Source of the DNA: Calditrichia bacterium
GTDB taxonomy: Bacteria > Calditrichota > Calditrichia > Calditrichales > J004
Reading direction: 5' to 3'
NCBI GenBank assembly: GCA_027006055.1
Contig: JALTKX010000241.1
Coordinates: forward strand, 1-38,808
Length of the DNA: 38,808 nt
This document shows positions 5,082-27,062 of this stretch, in pieces; the first letter of the stretch is position 1, and each line of letters begins with the position of its first letter. The notes under the pieces are model-generated. The model saw only the letters and a list, made by a program, of their open reading frames with translations. It was not told the DNA's origin and made no database searches. The position numbers were made by a program, and so were the translations under genes.

Positions 5082-5111
5082 TTGACTGCTATCCCGCAAA
5101 CTGTGTATATT
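5082..5111 (+). promoter_or_regulatory. Candidate sigma-70-type promoter of the suf operon
   Basis: TTGACT (5082-5087) and TATATT (5106-5111) are separated by 18 bases, a close match to the housekeeping consensus. The predicted transcript would begin near 5118, leaving a leader of about 57 bases before the regulator ATG at 5175. Confidence 0.6.
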
Positions 5112-5116
5112 TGGAT

Positions 5117-5137
5117 ATCCGATCAAAAAGGTCGGAT
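5117..5137 (+). repeat. Short inverted repeat at the predicted 5' end of the suf transcript
   Basis: ATCCGA (5117-5122) and TCGGAT (5132-5137) are perfect inverted copies with a 9-base spacer, followed by TTTT. It could be a regulator site, a 5' stabilising hairpin, or a leader terminator; the sequence alone does not decide. Confidence 0.35.
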
Positions 5138-5151
5138 TTTTGTTTGTCTAT

Positions 5152-5176
5152 ATACAAGACTAAATGAGTCCTATAT
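5152..5176. promoter_or_regulatory. Candidate Rrf2/IscR-type operator overlapping the regulator start codon
   Basis: Half-sites ATACAAGACT (5152-5161) and AGTCCTATAT (5167-5176) form an imperfect 25-bp palindrome (8 of 10 positions match) around the spacer AAATG. The GACT...AGTC core with ATA/TAT ends resembles the known IscR type-1 operator. It lies between a good promoter and, in part, on the ATG of the Rrf2 gene, so autoregulation is the likely role. Confidence 0.55.
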
Positions 5177-5615
5177 GCTGCGTTTAAGTAAAAAAAGCGA
5201 ATATGCCATCATTGCCCTGGTGGATCTGGCCGGGCGTCAAAGCGGGGAACCGATCCCCGTAAAGCAGATGGCGGAGAGCTATATGATCCCCGGCGAGCTT
5301 TTGGGTAAGATATTTCAGACCCTGAAAAAGGCGGGGCTGGTATACTCCGTGCAGGGCACAAAGGGGGGCTACCAGCTTGCCCGCCGTCCGCAAGAGATTA
5401 ATCTCAGTGAAATCATCGAATCCATAGAAGGGCCAATTTCGCTGATGTCTTGTTTTTCCGAGCTGGACTGCGACTGCCTGCAGTTTAGCAGTTGCACCAT
5501 AAAATCACCATTGCAGTTTATTCAATCGGAAATTAAAAACTATTTTCAACAGATTACGCTGGATACCTTAAAGGACAATCTTGTAAAACCACTAAGTCAG
5601 CTTTCGGTGATGTGA
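5175..5615 (+). CDS. Rrf2-family Fe-S-sensing transcriptional regulator (IscR/SufR-like)
   Basis: A 146-residue regulator heading the SUF operon. The N-terminal winged helix begins 'MLRLSKKSEYAIIALVDLA', the standard Rrf2 opening, which fixes the start at 5175 rather than the longer upstream frame. 'GTKGGYQLAR' (61-70) is the wing. Four cysteines (Cys93, Cys99, Cys101, Cys107) lie in the loop where IscR has its cluster ligands, so it probably binds an Fe-S cluster. It likely senses cluster status and controls the downstream suf genes; the candidate operator lies on its own start codon. The ribosome binding site is weak. The stop overlaps the next gene. Confidence 0.9.
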   Translation: MLRLSKKSEYAIIALVDLAGRQSGEPIPVKQMAESYMIPGELLGKIFQTLKKAGLVYSVQGTKGGYQLARRPQEINLSEIIESIEGPISLMSCFSELDCDCLQFSSCTIKSPLQFIQSEIKNYFQQITLDTLKDNLVKPLSQLSVM

Positions 5616-5920
5616 TGGCCGATGAAGAAGAAATCCTCGACGCGTTGCGGGATGTATACGACCCTGAAATAAGGGTTAATATTGTGGAACTGGGGTTGAT
5701 CTATAAAATCATCATCGGGGAAGATGGCTTTGTAACGGTGCGCATGACACTGACGTCGCCCAACTGTCCGGCGGTGGAGGAATTGAAAAGAGAGATACTG
5801 CGCACGGTAAAATCGCAGGACGGCATAACGGGCGCGGAACTGGATTTGGTCTGGGAACCCGAATGGACGCCGGCCATGATGAGCGAGGAAGCGCGCCTTG
5901 AACTTGGATATGATATTTAA
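5615..5920 (+). CDS. MIP18-family (DUF59) Fe-S maturation protein, first copy
   Basis: A protein of about 101 residues of the MIP18/SufT/PaaD family, which assists Fe-S cluster maturation or delivery. Visible family marks are '[11 protein letters not shown]', 'NIVELGLIY', 'LTSPNCP' with the conserved cysteine, and the C-terminal '[12 protein letters not shown]'. The ATG at 5615 shares one base with the regulator stop (TGATG); a GTG one codon earlier (5612) is the alternative. It is clearly paralogous to the MIP18 gene at 9530 but diverges around the cysteine (PAVEEL against SAQSLP). Its place between regulator and sufB supports a SUF role. Confidence 0.88.
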
Positions 5921-5937: not shown

Positions 5938-7380
5938 ATGAGTACGGAAGCCGAACAGCTTGAATCGTTAGCCCAACAGGAATATAAATACGGTTTTGTA
6001 ACCGACATAGAAGCCGACGCCTTGCCGCCCGGCCTGAACGAGGATGTTATACGCATCATCTCCCAAAAAAAGAAGGAGCCGGCATTTATGCTGGAATGGC
6101 GTTTAAAGGCCTATCGGCGCTGGCTTAAGATGGAAGAGCCCAAATGGCCCAAGGTGGAGTATCCCGAAATAAATTTTCAGGACATCATATACTACTCCGC
6201 CCCTAAAAACACGCCTAAGTATAACAGCCTTGATGAAGTAGACCCGCAATTACTGGAAACCTACAATAAGCTGGGCATTCCCCTGGAAGAGCAGAAAATG
6301 CTGGCCGGGGTGGCGGTTGACGCTGTTTTTGACAGTGTGTCCGTGGCGACAACCTTTAAGGAAAAACTTTCGGAAATGGGCGTTATCTTCTGTCCCATCT
6401 CCGAAGCCTTGCAAGAATATCCGGATTTGGTAAAAAAATACCTGGGCTCCGTGGTGCCGGCAACGGACAACTTTTACGCCGCCTTAAACTCGGCCGTGTT
6501 CAGTGACGGCTCCTTTGTTTATGTGCCCAAGGGGGTGCGTTGCCCCATGGAGTTGTCCACATACTTTCGCATCAACGCCCAGAATACCGGGCAGTTTGAA
6601 CGTACCCTGATCGTGGCCGACGAAGGCTCTTATGTCAGTTACCTGGAAGGCTGCACCGCGCCGCAAAGGGATGAAAACCAGTTGCATGCCGCCGTGGTGG
6701 AACTGGTGGCGCTCAAGGGTGCCGAGATAAAATATTCCACCGTTCAAAACTGGTATCCCGGTGATGACGAGGGCAAGGGCGGTATTTACAATTTTGTCAC
6801 CAAGCGCGGCATCGCCCATGAAAATGCCAAAATTTCCTGGACGCAGGTGGAAACGGGTTCGGCCATCACCTGGAAATATCCCAGCGTTATTTTAAAAGGG
6901 GATAATTCCATCGGAGAATTCTATTCCGTGGCCATGACCAATAAATTTCAACAGGCCGATACGGGTACCAAGATGATCCACATCGGCAAGAACACACGTA
7001 GTAATATCGTTTCGAAGGGTATCAGCGCCGGACGCAGTAACAACAGTTACCGCGGATTGGTAAAAGTCATGAAATCCGCAGAGAATGCCCGCAACTTCTC
7101 TCAATGTGACAGTTTGCTGATCGGCGATAAGTGCGGCGCGCATACCTTTCCCTATATTGAAGTAAACAATACCACCGGCCGCGTGGAACACGAGGCCACC
7201 ACGTCAAAGATCGGCGAAGATCAGATATTTTACTGCAACCAGCGCGGGCTGGATACCGAACAGGCGGTTTCCCTGATCGTTAACGGCTATTGCAAGGAAG
7301 TTTTCCGCGAACTGCCCATGGAATTTGCCGTGGAAGCGCAAAAGTTGTTAAGCATCAGTCTGGAAGGCAGCGTGGGGTAA
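5938..7380 (+). CDS. sufB: Fe-S cluster assembly scaffold protein SufB
   Basis: SufB forms the SufBC2D scaffold on which Fe-S clusters are built, accepting sulfur from SufS. The 480-residue length is typical. The long conserved core is intact: '[20 protein letters not shown]', 'EGCTAP', 'VQNWYPGD', '[10 protein letters not shown]', '[13 protein letters not shown]', '[19 protein letters not shown]', and the C-terminal '[20 protein letters not shown]'. The Cys in 'SQCDSLL' and the Glu-rich C-terminal region correspond to residues needed for cluster assembly. AAGAAAGGA precedes the ATG by about 9 bases. It lies 17 bases after the first MIP18 gene, in the same operon. Confidence 0.98.
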
Positions 7381-7420
7381 AATAGCCGGCGCATGCCGAT
7401 AATCATTAACAGAATATATA

Positions 7421-7440
7421 GCGGGCCGTTAAATGCCCGC
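7421..7440 (+). repeat. Hairpin between sufB and sufC
   Basis: GCGGGC (7421-7426) and GCCCGC (7435-7440) pair around an 8-base loop, in the 81-base gap between sufB and sufC. No U-run follows, so it is not a standard terminator; it may stabilise or separate the two cistrons. Confidence 0.35.
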
Positions 7441-7461
7441 GTTAACATTTTGGAGAAAGCA

Positions 7462-8199
7462 ATGTTACAAATAAAAGATTTACATGCCTCCATAGAAGGC
7501 AAGGAAATTTTAAAGGGCATCGACCTGGAAGTGAAAAAAGGCGAGGTGCACGCCATTATGGGGCCCAACGGTTCCGGGAAAAGCACGCTGGCCAATATCC
7601 TGGCCGGCCGCGAGGAGTACGAGGTTACCTCGGGCAGTATCAACTACCTGGGCGAGGACCTGTTGGAGCTTGACCCGGAGGAGCGGGCTCACAAGGGGAT
7701 TTTTCTGGCCTTTCAATACCCGGTGGAGATTCCCGGCGTTTCCAACGTCTATTTTTTGAGAACCGCCCTGAATGAAGTGCGCAAATCACAGGGGCTGGAA
7801 GAGCTGGACGCGGCTCAGTTCCTGAAACTGGTGCGCAGGAAAATAGACCTGGTGGAACTTGATAAATCGCTGCTCAACCGCGCCGTAAACGAAGGCTTTT
7901 CCGGCGGCGAGAAGAAACGCAATGAAATATTTCAGATGGCTGTGCTGGAACCCAAACTGGCCATTCTGGATGAAACCGATTCCGGTCTGGATATCGACGC
8001 GCTGCGCATTGTGGCCAATGGGGTCAATTCCCTTAAAAGCAAGGATAACGCCACCATCGTCGTTACGCACTATCAGCGCCTGTTGGACTATATCGTTCCA
8101 GACGTGGTGCATGTGCTTTTTAAGGGGAAAATAGTAAAATCGGGCGGCAAGGAACTGGCGCTGGAATTGGAATCTAAAGGTTACGACTGGTTAAAGTAA
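7462..8199 (+). CDS. sufC: SUF system ATPase SufC
   Basis: SufC is the ABC-type ATPase of the SufBC2D complex; its ATP cycle drives conformational change of the scaffold. The protein has 245 residues. The Walker A 'GPNGSGKST' is near residue 34, the SufC-type signature '[14 protein letters not shown]' near 143, and Walker B '[16 protein letters not shown]' near 163. '[12 protein letters not shown]' supplies the switch His. The start at 7462 ([11 protein letters not shown]) is chosen over an in-frame ATG at 7393 because GGAG sits 7 bases upstream and the family begins here. Confidence 0.97.
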
Positions 8200-8211: not shown

Positions 8212-9528
8212 ATGCAAAATGAAATTAAACACTATCTTGACCAGTTTGAACGGTTTCATAACGGTTCGGCCGGCCAGGCCGTGCATGCCCTGCGTAAAAA
8301 GGCGCTAAGGGAATTTGAACAGGAAGGTTTCCCCACCACGCGGCAGGAGGAATGGCGTTTTACCAATGTCAAGCCCCTGGCTCAAACCCCTTTTATGGTG
8401 AGCGGCGGGGCACAACTGCAACAGCCGGAAGTGGAAACGTTTTTGTTCCCCGGCTGGCAAAAACCGCTTATCGTACTGGTAAACGGCCGTTTTGACAGGG
8501 AACTCTCCCGTAACTGGCAGGATATTCCCGGCGTGGACGTTATTCCGCTGAAACAGGTGCTTGACGAGGACAAAACCCTGTTCAATGCTTATCTGACAAA
8601 AATAGTACAGGATCATGAAACCGTCTTTTCGCGGCTGAACAGCGCCTTTATGCATGACGGCGTCTGTCTGCATATCAATGACAAGGTGCGCGTTCAGGAA
8701 GAGATTCACATCGTTCATGTGATGAAGGGCGGAGAAAAACCGCTGGCCGCCTATCCGCGCAATCTGATCATTGCCGGAAAGGGTAGCGAGGCCTGCCTGA
8801 TAGAAACCTTTCATTCCTCGGGCGCCGGGGTAACCTTTACGGATATGGTCAGCGAAGTGTTTGTGGGCGAAAACGCCCGTTTAAAACATTACCGCATTCA
8901 AAATGAGTCCCCGGAAGCCTTTCATGTCAGCAATACGGCGGTCAGTCAAAAAGAGAACAGCAACTATAAATCCGTCACCTTTACCTTTGGCGGCAGGCTG
9001 GTGCGCAACAACATCAGCACGGCCCTGAACGGGCAGGGTATCGAATCCACGCTTAACGGACTTTATATGGTCCGCGACAAGCAGTTGATCGACAATCATA
9101 CCTTTATAGATCACGCCAGGGCCCATTGCGACAGCCACGAGTTGTATCGCGGTATTTTAAGGGACAGCGCCCGCGCTGTTTTCAGCGGAAAAATTCTTGT
9201 GCGTCCCGACGCGCAGAAAACAGACGCCAAGCAGAGCAATAACTGTCTGCTGCTTTCCGATGAAGCCCGGGTGGATACAAAACCCCAGTTGGAGATATAT
9301 GCCGACGACGTAAAATGTACCCACGGCGCCACCGTGGGGCAGTTGGATGAGGAAGCAGCCTTTTATCTGCGCGCCCGGGGCATCCCCCGGCACAAGGCCA
9401 CCGGCATACTCACCTATGCTTTTGCCGAAGAGATTATCGCGGCCATAGAAGTGGCGGAAGTGCGCGACGCCGTACATGCCCTGCTGGCCGACAGGCTGGG
9501 ACACGAAATAGACTTTACCGAGGTTTAA
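8212..9528 (+). CDS. sufD: Fe-S cluster assembly protein SufD
   Basis: SufD is the non-identical partner of SufB in the SufBC2D scaffold. The 438-residue length fits. The N-terminal helical part contains 'TRQEEWRFTNVKPL'. The beta-helix core and the conserved end 'SGKILVRPDAQKTDAKQ', 'NNCLLLSDEARVDTKPQLEI', 'DVKCTHGATVGQLDEEAAFY' and 'RGIPRHKATGILTYAFAEEI' are all present, including the His in 'CTHGA'. TAAGGAG lies 9 bases before the ATG. It is tightly placed between sufC (12-base gap) and the second MIP18 gene (1-base gap). Confidence 0.97.
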   Translation: MQNEIKHYLDQFERFHNGSAGQAVHALRKKALREFEQEGFPTTRQEEWRFTNVKPLAQTPFMVSGGAQLQQPEVETFLFPGWQKPLIVLVNGRFDRELSRNWQDIPGVDVIPLKQVLDEDKTLFNAYLTKIVQDHETVFSRLNSAFMHDGVCLHINDKVRVQEEIHIVHVMKGGEKPLAAYPRNLIIAGKGSEACLIETFHSSGAGVTFTDMVSEVFVGENARLKHYRIQNESPEAFHVSNTAVSQKENSNYKSVTFTFGGRLVRNNISTALNGQGIESTLNGLYMVRDKQLIDNHTFIDHARAHCDSHELYRGILRDSARAVFSGKILVRPDAQKTDAKQSNNCLLLSDEARVDTKPQLEIYADDVKCTHGATVGQLDEEAAFYLRARGIPRHKATGILTYAFAEEIIAAIEVAEVRDAVHALLADRLGHEIDFTEV

Positions 9529-9529
9529 C

Positions 9530-9847
9530 GTGACCATGGATGAACAAAAAATCACCCGGGAACAAATTGTTGACGCCCTGAAAACGGTATACGATCCGGA
9601 AATTCCGGTGGATATTTATGAACTGGGGCTGATATATGACATCAAAATAAAGGATAAAAAGGTTTTTATCCTGATGACGCTGACCACGCCCAACTGTCCC
9701 TCGGCGCAGTCGTTGCCCATGGAGGTGAAGGATCGCGTTATCCGCGTGCCGGGCGTGGAGGATGTGGAGGTGGAAATTGTATGGGACCCGCCCTGGGGCA
9801 TGGAAATGATGTCCGAGGAGGCCCGCCTGGAACTGGGGTATTTTTAA
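9530..9847 (+). CDS. sufT: MIP18-family (SufT-like) Fe-S maturation protein, second copy
   Basis: A 105-residue protein of the MIP18/DUF59 family, closest in pattern to SufT, an Fe-S maturation factor. Landmarks are 'VYDPEIPVDIYELGLIYD', 'LTTPNCPSAQSLP' with the conserved Cys, and '[13 protein letters not shown]' at the C-terminus. The GTG at 9530 is preceded by GAGG at a good distance; the ATG at 9536 is the alternative start. It lies between sufD and sufS, as SufT often does. The gene name is by family and position. Confidence 0.88.
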   Translation: MTMDEQKITREQIVDALKTVYDPEIPVDIYELGLIYDIKIKDKKVFILMTLTTPNCPSAQSLPMEVKDRVIRVPGVEDVEVEIVWDPPWGMEMMSEEARLELGYF

Positions 9848-9879
9848 AGAATGGGCCAACTTAAGAGGGGATGGCGTTT

Positions 9880-11130
9880 ATGATGCGGGAAAAAGAGATT
9901 GCCTCGCCCATGGAGCTTGTGGACGTTAAAAAAATCCGCGCGGATTTTCCGGCCTTGCATCAACAGGTGCATGGCCGTCCGCTCGTCTATCTGGATAACG
10001 CGGCCACCACGCAAAAACCGTTGGCCGTGCTGGAAGCCCTGCAAAACTATTACCGCAGGGATAACGCCAATGTACATCGCGGCCTGCATACCCTGGCGGA
10101 AAGGGCCACCGAGGCTTTTGAACAGGCCCGCGAGGCCGTTGCCCGTTTTATAAACGCGCCGAAAAGCAGCGAGCTTATATTTACCCGGGGCACAACGGAA
10201 TCCCTGAATATGCTGGCCCATTCGTATGGCCACAGCTTCCTGAAGGATGATGACGAAGTCATCGTGAGTGAAATGGAACACCACAGCAACATCGTTCCCT
10301 GGTTCCTTTTGCGGGATCGCCTGAAAATAAAGGTGCGTTTCTGGCCGGTGGAAAAGGATGGAACCCTGGATTTGGAAAAGCTGCGCAAGTTGATAAGTCC
10401 CCGAACGCGGCTAATCTCCATAAGCCACATGTCCAATGTGTTGGGCACGCATAATCCGGTAAGGGAAATAGTGAAGATCGCCCATGAACAGGGCATTCAT
10501 GTAAGCGTGGACGGGGCCCAAAGCGTTCCCTCCATGCCGGTGGATGTCCGGGAGCTCGGTTGTGACTTTCTGGCCTTTTCCGCCCATAAAATGGGCGGCC
10601 CCACGGGAATAGGCGCCCTGTGGGGCAGGGCGGAGCTGTTGAATAAAATGACCCCCTATATGGGGGGCGGCGAGATGATCGCCCATGTAACCACCTCCGG
10701 GGCGAGCTGGGCGGAAATTCCCCATAAATTCGAGGCGGGAACCCCCAATATTGCCGGGGCCATCGGTTTCGGGGCCGCCGTGCGCTATATAGAAGAGATA
10801 GGCATGTCTAAAATCCATGATTATGAGCAGGCCCTTACAGCGACCCTGCTGGAAAAAATGCGCACCGTGGAGGGACTGACGATATACGGGCCGCTGCAAA
10901 AGCGCGGGCCGGCCATTTCCTTTAAACTGGATGGCGTGCATCCTTTCGATCTTACCCAGTTCCTGGATCAACTGGGCATCGCCATCCGCGTGGGGCACCA
11001 TTGCGCCGAACCGCTTATGAACGCGCTTGGCGTTAGCGCCACAACCCGCGTTAGCCTCTATTACTATAATACCCCCGATGAAACCGACTATTTTGTGGAC
11101 GCCCTTAAAAAGGCCCGGGACTTCTTTTAA
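9880..11130 (+). CDS. sufS: Cysteine desulfurase SufS
   Basis: SufS is a PLP enzyme (group II cysteine desulfurase) that releases sulfur from cysteine as a persulfide for the SufBCD scaffold. The PLP lysine lies in 'FSAHKMGGPTGIGALWG' (Lys237 from this start) and the catalytic Cys in 'RVGHHCAEPLM' (Cys375). 'DGAQSVPSMPVDV' and 'TRGTTESLN' are standard. I chose the ATG at 9880 because GAGGGG lies 9 bases upstream; the ATG at 9871 would have it touching the start. No SufE or SufU gene is seen in the operon or elsewhere in the window. It is the last suf gene. Confidence 0.97.
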   Translation: MMREKEIASPMELVDVKKIRADFPALHQQVHGRPLVYLDNAATTQKPLAVLEALQNYYRRDNANVHRGLHTLAERATEAFEQAREAVARFINAPKSSELIFTRGTTESLNMLAHSYGHSFLKDDDEVIVSEMEHHSNIVPWFLLRDRLKIKVRFWPVEKDGTLDLEKLRKLISPRTRLISISHMSNVLGTHNPVREIVKIAHEQGIHVSVDGAQSVPSMPVDVRELGCDFLAFSAHKMGGPTGIGALWGRAELLNKMTPYMGGGEMIAHVTTSGASWAEIPHKFEAGTPNIAGAIGFGAAVRYIEEIGMSKIHDYEQALTATLLEKMRTVEGLTIYGPLQKRGPAISFKLDGVHPFDLTQFLDQLGIAIRVGHHCAEPLMNALGVSATTRVSLYYYNTPDETDYFVDALKKARDFF

Positions 11131-25158: not shown

Positions 25159-25584
25159 TCAGGCCAGCCGTTTGCCGAATATCTCCAGCTTTTCCGCCAG
25201 GTGCGCCAGCGAAGTGGCGCGGAACTGGCGTTCGATCTGTAAGCGCAGGGGCCTCCACTCCTCATGCAGGGGACAGGGCGCGTCATCCTCGCAGCCCGGA
25301 ATGCCTAAAATACACTCCGTAAACATGGGCCGGGTTTCCAAAATTATTACGATCTCATAAATAGAAATGTCTTCCGGCTTTTTGGAAAGGCGTACACCTC
25401 CCTTGGGTCCCCTGTAGGAGACAAGAAGATTGTTTTGTGTTAGCTTCTGCAGGATTTTGGTTAAAAAATGAAATGATATTTTTAACTCTTCTGACATTTT
25501 GGAGATGGATATATATTGATCCTGGTCGCTGTTAGCCAGGTGAATCATGGCCCGCAGGCCATATACTGTTGTATTCGATAGCAT
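25159..25584 (-). CDS. Rrf2-family transcriptional regulator, second copy
   Basis: A 141-residue winged-helix regulator. 'MLSNTTVYGLRAMIHLA' is the Rrf2 N-terminus; the wing is 'RGPKGGVRLSKKP' (58-70). Three cysteines, Cys91, Cys98 and Cys104, have near-IscR spacing, so an Fe-S cluster is likely. It differs strongly from the suf-linked Rrf2 protein. GAGG lies 6-7 bases upstream of the ATG. It is divergent from a PLP sulfur-amino-acid enzyme gene, which is its most likely target: the Rrf2 protein CymR controls cysteine metabolism in Bacillus, although CymR lacks the cysteines. Confidence 0.9.
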   Translation of the reverse strand: MLSNTTVYGLRAMIHLANSDQDQYISISKMSEELKISFHFLTKILQKLTQNNLLVSYRGPKGGVRLSKKPEDISIYEIVIILETRPMFTECILGIPGCEDDAPCPLHEEWRPLRLQIERQFRATSLAHLAEKLEIFGKRLA

Positions 25585-25865: not shown

Positions 25866-27062
25866 ATGGGACACAAGGTTGACAAGAACTGGAAGATAAG
25901 CACCATGTGCGTTCATGGAGCGGGTGGATACGATAAAGCCACGGGTTCCGTGGGCAAACCCATCTATCAAACATCCACCTTCGCCTTTGAAAGCGCCCGG
26001 GCCGGAGCGGAAATATTTTTGGGGGAACGGGAAGGTTACGTTTACACGCGCATCAGTAACCCTACCCAGGAAGCCTTTGAAAAAGAGATGGCTTTTTTGG
26101 AGGGCGGCGAGGCGGCGCTGGCCTTTGGTTCCGGCATGGCGGCCATTTCGGGCGTGATTATGGCGCTTTGTAAAAACGGAGACAATATCGTCTCTTCCGA
26201 TACCCTGTATGGCGGTTCGCACCAGTTGTTTACCGAAACGCTGCCGCGCTGGGATATCTCAGTGCGCGAGGTGGACGGCACCGATTGCCGGAATGTGGCC
26301 GAAGCCCTGGATGACAGAACACGGGCCATCTATATAGAAACCCCGGCCAATCCGACCCTGGCCCTGATCGATATTGAACAATGCGCGGAAATAGCCCATA
26401 AGCACGGTATTCCCCTTATTGTGGACAACACTTTCCCGACGCCTTATTTCCAACAACCCTTAAAATTAGGCGCGGATGTGGTGGTGCATTCGGCCACAAA
26501 ATATATCGGCGGTCACGGCGATACCGTTGCCGGCGTGGCCATAGGTAAAAAAGAGTTTATCGATGAACTGCGCATGGGAATTCTGCGCGATATGGGCGGT
26601 ATAATCAGTCCCCTGAACGCCTGGCTATTGGTGCGCGGATTAAAAACGCTGGCCATTCGCATGGAGCGGCATCAGGAAAACGCCATGCAGATTGCCAAAT
26701 ACCTGCAATTTCACCCCAAGGTAAAAAATGTATTTTATCCGGGACTGAGCACCCACCCGCAGCACAATCTGGCCAAAAAACAAATGAGCGGATTTGGCGG
26801 AATGGTCAGCTTTGAGGTTAAAGGTGGGCGAAAAGCGGGCGAAACTCTAATGAATTCCGTGGAATTGATCACCCTGGCGGTAAGCCTTGGCGACGTCGAC
26901 TCCCTTATCGAGCATCCCGGCTCGATGACACATTCGACTTACGCGCCGGAAGAGCTGGCCGCCGTGGGCATAACGGAAGGGTTGGTACGTCTTTCCGTGG
27001 GCATTGAAGACCCGAAAGATATTATCAACGATCTTTCCCAGGCACTGAATAAAATTAAATAG
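25866..27062 (+). CDS. Methionine gamma-lyase-like PLP enzyme (Cys/Met metabolism family)
   Basis: A 398-residue fold-type I PLP enzyme. The PLP lysine lies in '[14 protein letters not shown]', phosphate contacts in 'YTRISNPTQ' and 'GSGMAAIS', and the C-terminal part '[18 protein letters not shown]' and '[18 protein letters not shown]' closely follows methionine gamma-lyase, which splits methionine into methanethiol, ammonia and 2-oxobutanoate. However, the 'LYGC' cysteine typical of characterised methionine gamma-lyases is Gly here ('[10 protein letters not shown]'), as in cystathionine gamma-lyases/synthases. Substrate is therefore open. GAAAGGA lies upstream of the ATG. It is divergent from an Rrf2 gene. 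Confidence 0.87.

Follow-up and report, generated by a model that had tools for sequence, protein, structure and literature searches.

A conserved pair of GAC-N7-GTC-type palindromes at the rrf2-suf promoter of Calditrichota, most likely operators for autorepression

The window, by which we mean the whole stretch of 38,808 nucleotides analysed here (contig JALTKX010000241.1 of the Calditrichia bacterium assembly GCA_027006055.1), carries a suf operon headed by an rrf2 gene, which is followed in order by a gene for a DUF59-type protein, sufB, sufC, sufD, a second DUF59-type gene, and sufS (Table 1). Upstream of rrf2 stands the near-consensus promoter reported in the preliminary description of this DNA (TTGACT-18 bp-TATATT, 10 of 12 matches), and two palindromes of one motif, O1 and O2, lie downstream of its -10 element, the position of which places the inferred transcription start near 5118. 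The -35 consensus TTGACN is kept in most relatives with a spacer of 17-18 bp to the -10, and in two divergent congeners the -35 element is identical at 6/6 and 5/6 positions, against an identity of 27-50% for the spacer and the stretch upstream. The rrf2 start is without a good Shine-Dalgarno signal, its anti-SD pairing (-2.2 kcal/mol) being the weakest among the gene starts checked as compared to -5.6 to -8.4 kcal/mol for sufB to sufS, and O2 occupies the place where such a signal would be. This poor signal may keep the regulator low relative to the Suf proteins.

Table 1. Features of the rrf2-suf promoter region and operon in the window
Feature	Positions	Strand	Basis
-35 element TTGACT	5082..5087	+	motif scan; conserved in relatives
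-10 element TATATT	5106..5111	+	motif scan; TATATT in most relatives
Putative operator O1, ATATCCGATCAAAAAGGTCGGATTT	5115..5139	+	best profile match in window
Candidate O1 RNA hairpin, terminator-like with T tract after it	5117..5137	+	scan; fold of O1 stretch -10.3 kcal/mol
T tract, TTTTGTTT	5138..5145	+	-14 to -7 from O2
Putative operator O2 (palindrome reported earlier), ATACAAGACTAAATGAGTCCTATAT	5152..5176	+	overlaps ATG; second-best profile match
Rrf2-family regulator (Cys93/Cys101/Cys107)	5175..5615	+	TIGR00738, 120.4 bits (curated cut-off 73.3)
SUF-associated DUF59-type protein	5612..5920	+	TIGR02945, 120 bits, below cut-off of 143
SufB	5938..7380	+	NCBIfam, above cut-off
SufC	7393..8199	+	TIGR01978, above cut-off
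SufD	8212..9528	+	TIGR01981, above cut-off
Second SUF-associated DUF59-type protein	9530..9847	+	TIGR02945, above cut-off
SufS cysteine desulfurase	9871..11130	+	TIGR01979, above cut-off

The preliminary description took O2 alone, as a palindrome with 8 of 10 arm matches that covers the start codon about 35-60 bases downstream of the transcription start. We recovered it at 5152-5176, where it reads ATACAAGACT-AAATG-AGTCCTATAT, and window shuffles gave no match to it, so it stands above chance; it ends on the A and T of the rrf2 ATG (5175-5177), and with a start near 5118 it spans about +35 to +59. The site overlooked at that time, O1, emerged from comparison with relatives and lies upstream of O2 at a centre-to-centre distance of 37 bp, beginning 3 bp past the -10 element and, if numbered from the inferred start, covering approximately -3 to +22. 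Both palindromes share the geometry GA(C/T)-N7-(A/G)TC within A/T ends, O2 being exactly GAC-N7-GTC, as is the consensus over 43 sites, and O1 being GAT-N7-GTC; the full Calditrichota motif is AAATACGACnAAAAnAGTCGGATTT. A 25-position profile trained on 39 sites, all from genera other than that of the window, scored O1 at 27.6 bits, O2 at 20.6 bits, and the next-best place in the window at 8.2, compared to a mean maximum of 8.0 bits in 60 simulated windows (one of which reached 19.7). O2 is thus the weaker operator of the pair and O1 the stronger. The genome-wide scan that had been proposed as a check was run with R1, a sequence model built from 43 sites, and returned O1 and O2 as the sole matches in the draft genome among the best candidates scored (E = 2.6e-4 and 0.026), although these E-values are not independent because R1 includes the sites of the window's own genus.

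Both palindromes are conserved well beyond their surroundings. Among divergent congeners, O1 is 92-96% and O2 84-96% identical, as compared to 50-58% for the linker between them, 33-50% for the promoter spacer, and 27-43% for the upstream stretch. Matches to R1 at E<=0.01 were found in 32 of 40 class genomes, all of which carry an orthologue of the suf-linked Rrf2 (partly masked in G034). The motif, whose conservation in relatives was another check suggested at the outset, accompanies the orthologue in 32 of 33 class genomes and is present in 0 of 7 genomes without it (Fisher p = 4e-7, kinship ignored); the lone exception, G022, is cut at a contig end. The Rrf2 protein of G018 is not an orthologue, and no operator site was found there. 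In G033, rrf2 has been relocated and has no site at its new location (L099), and the site stays at the sufB promoter (L090). What is directly established is that two palindromes sharing one motif are present and conserved, where they lie, and that they are linked to the regulator and to suf promoters. Outside the class, only 2 of ~250 genomes match R1 at E<=0.001. Because sites occur mainly at suf and at few other genes, among them an A-type Fe-S carrier gene in G028 (L066), the regulon seems to be a small one with suf at its centre. Weak extra model matches inside genes (L069-L072) were taken as chance.

The protein encoded directly downstream belongs to the Rrf2 superfamily by its score against TIGR00738, and Cys93, Cys101, and Cys107 as well as the wing glycines Gly61, Gly64, and Gly65 are invariant in its alignment with E. 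coli IscR. It falls below the cut-offs of both IscR models (TIGR02010, 89 bits against 207.55; NF008110, 58.6 bits against 275); in the alignment, IscR residues Ser40, Glu43, Gln44, and Arg59 correspond to Glu41, Gly44, Lys45, and Gln60, and the position of the ligand His107 is Lys/Arg. Judged by these comparisons, the regulator is a member of the Rrf2 family but not IscR.

We consider it very probable that O1 and O2 are operators of this downstream-encoded Rrf2 protein and that its cluster-bound dimer autorepresses rrf2-suf. Autorepression by the cluster-bound regulator is the likeliest function of what appears to be a real, conserved operator pair, and the arrangement suggests that the operon turns itself off at two steps. 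A dimer loaded with its Fe-S cluster would bind O1 at the transcription start and prevent initiation, and the same dimer on O2 at the ATG would serve as a backup that may halt polymerase already escaped from the promoter. When Fe-S clusters are scarce, Rrf2 would lose its cluster and leave the DNA, and rrf2-suf would be derepressed. Binding by the operon's own Rrf2, the repressing sign, cluster sensing, and the step blocked at each site are what we infer from the locus, and the replacement of the IscR base-contact residues, including Arg59 by Gln, counts against the model. The preliminary description favoured a roadblock-type or close-range mechanism over the common case in which the operator overlaps -35/-10. 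This contrast does not hold: the stronger O1 directly follows the -10, in the window as in nearly all relatives, so an ordinary block of initiation is expected; a roadblock at O2 may act as a second tier on top of O1.

Among characterised regulators, the one that behaves most like this is RisR of Myxococcus xanthus (Rrf2 group IS6), which recognises a GAC-N7-GTC site and in its cluster-bound form, probably with a [4Fe-4S] cluster, represses both suf and isc (PMC9973013). In both systems an Rrf2 gene heads the suf operon, a GAC-N7-GTC palindrome with A+T flanks lies at the suf promoter, and the regulator has three cysteines without conserving the IscR base-contact residues. However, RisR footprints cover a single site per promoter, over -35/-10 at suf or -10/start at isc (PMC9973013), whereas the window locus has one site after the -10, a second over the ATG, and a fixed T tract. 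In addition, RisR retains Arg59 where the window protein has Gln, and RisR also controls isc whereas the window genome has sites at the suf promoter only.

One further conserved element is new here, the T tract before O2. Most relatives show TTGACN-17-TATATT followed by O1 after 1-13 bp, with two operators in 18 loci (11 genera) and one in 10 loci. In the 18 double-operator loci, the second operator ends anywhere from 2 bases inside the ATG to 8 bases before it, and the centres of O1 and O2 are 35 to 73 bp apart. Nevertheless, every one of these loci (18/18, in 11/11 genera) has at least six Ts among the eight bases at -14 to -7 from O2, a composition found in 2.3% of background 8-mers, and the tract keeps a sharp edge at -6 from O2 although the distance between the operators varies. 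Where the spacing is short, the tract opens with one or two Ts that belong to the end of O1. We rejected several accounts of this element. A second promoter within it (TTGACA-18-TAGATT) appears in L021 and is absent in the others, so it is not general. Because most single-operator loci lack the tract (L013 does have one), it is not part of the binding site. A role as a translation enhancer is less likely, since the spacing that stays constant is the one to O2 and not the one to the ATG. Searches for T6-N6-operator outside the class gave 7 matches as compared to ~11 in a reversed control, as expected by chance.

Sequence context leaves a terminator or pause coupled to O2 as a possible role for the tract. 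On the fuller reading, which we consider less likely than not, control would be two-tiered: O1 would block initiation, and Rrf2 bound at O2 would halt escaped polymerase over the T tract, where a leader hairpin (either O1 or a separate one) would aid transcript release. This reading extends the autorepression model without excluding it. It would account for a tract fixed relative to O2 across so wide a range of operator spacings, and a strict hairpin-plus-T test was passed by 14 of the 18 double-operator loci as opposed to 1 of the 10 single-operator loci; the same combination arose in 2.2% of shuffles, a control that does not keep, and so overlooks, the inherent palindrome of O1. Hairpins separate from O1 precede the tract in some loci (G+C-rich in L022, A+T-richer in L023 and L024). 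A T8-N6-operator unit likewise stands before an rrf2 gene in a Bacteroidetes MAG (L003, 3950-4000), heading an isc-type operon for a cysteine desulfurase, an IscU-like protein, an A-type carrier, and HscB-like and HscA-like proteins. A precedent for the O2 roadblock is LacI autorepression at O3 (PMC3711431), in which a repressor bound downstream of its own promoter stops elongation, as proposed for O2; the protein family and operator are different, and in the window locus it is the start codon of the regulator gene that the site covers, with a T tract before it and a second site at the transcription start. Against termination coupled to the operator, L026 and L028 have T tracts without a good adjacent hairpin. 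The leading edge of RNA polymerase extends ~15-18 bp, so polymerase stopped at O2 would have barely entered the T tract, a little too soon for intrinsic termination. The most specific version, a conserved leader terminator coupled to the operator, with its T tract exactly 6 bp upstream of O2 and O1 serving as the hairpin in short-spaced lineages including that of the window, is likewise less probable than not. At L029, 20-60 bases before rrf2, an apparently decayed O2 has kept a T tract at a distance of six bases on its upstream side.

Returning to autorepression by the downstream-encoded Rrf2, the window genome holds five Rrf2 genes, so it is by linkage that O1 and O2 are assigned to this one. 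Another paralogue or a different regulator could therefore occupy the sites, and a second rrf2 gene in G009 does have a similar site upstream (L064), but we regard this as unlikely when the motif tracks the suf-linked orthologue and its operon so closely across the class.

Still less probable is that the palindromes act as RNA, as a leader hairpin or attenuator, rather than as DNA operators. The O1 hairpin is stable and followed by Ts, and O1 folds more strongly than O2 (means of -9.7 and -2.4 kcal/mol, paired p = 3e-4), but O2 scarcely folds at all, as though the start codon were being kept free of structure. In the alignment of 43 sites, 4 of 10 pairs are invariant, covariation is barely above that of shuffles, and pairs 7-23 and 12-18 fail in 22 and 23 sequences, respectively; it is letters that are conserved and not compensatory changes that are seen, which favours a protein-binding DNA site. 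The motif also lies directly after other promoters (among them those of a sufB and an Fe-S carrier gene) and resembles known protein-binding sites.

The likeness of O2 to IscR type 1 sites, claimed in the preliminary description, received support, though not along the whole site: O2 fits the published consensus at 19 and O1 at 18 of 25 positions (in the GAC...GTC core and A/T ends, with the other flanks fitting in part only), and in the E. coli isc locus the type 1 site of iscR was the sole match to the Calditrichota model (10.9 bits), so the motifs are alike. As at the iscR promoters of E. coli and P. aeruginosa, a tandem pair of 25-bp GAC...GTC palindromes precedes an Fe-S operon. That the regulator is nonetheless a genuine IscR, acting on type 1 sites as in Enterobacteria, is very improbable given its low IscR scores, the replacement of the ligand His and all four recognition residues, and the placement of the sites, which in Calditrichota pairs follow the -10 with centres 35-73 bp apart, whereas the two type 1 sites of an IscR pair adjoin each other and in P. 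aeruginosa occupy -67 to -18 (PMC6599224).

Our literature search found no paper mentioning both Calditrichota and Rrf2, so this would be the group's first map of operators, and it offers a rule open to testing: motif, positions, and narrow regulon. A type 1-like GAC-N7-GTC site is retained while all IscR base-contact residues are replaced, so that the way Rrf2 proteins recognise DNA can be tested directly. If the T8-N6-operator unit does work as a repressor-gated terminator, no other example of such an arrangement is known to us.

Several minor observations accompany these results. A second Rrf2-family gene in the window (25159-25584, minus strand; 28% identical to the suf regulator) adjoins a cystathionine gamma-synthase-like gene (25866-27062) and possibly encodes a CymR-like cysteine regulator; a site of the O1/O2 type was looked for near it and not found. 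In three genomes of one family, operator-like sites lie upstream of Fur-family genes (L067, 2026-2047; L068, 2054-2075; L089, 2008-2032), which suggests that Fe-S control is tied to the control of iron or peroxide. In two genera, such a site precedes a gene for an outer-membrane-like protein with a signal-like start and no Pfam match (L065, 2071-2096; L088, 1960-1986). Finally, in a genome outside the class, a near-perfect site stands immediately ahead of a gene for a 4Fe-4S ferredoxin (L095, 2051-2077).
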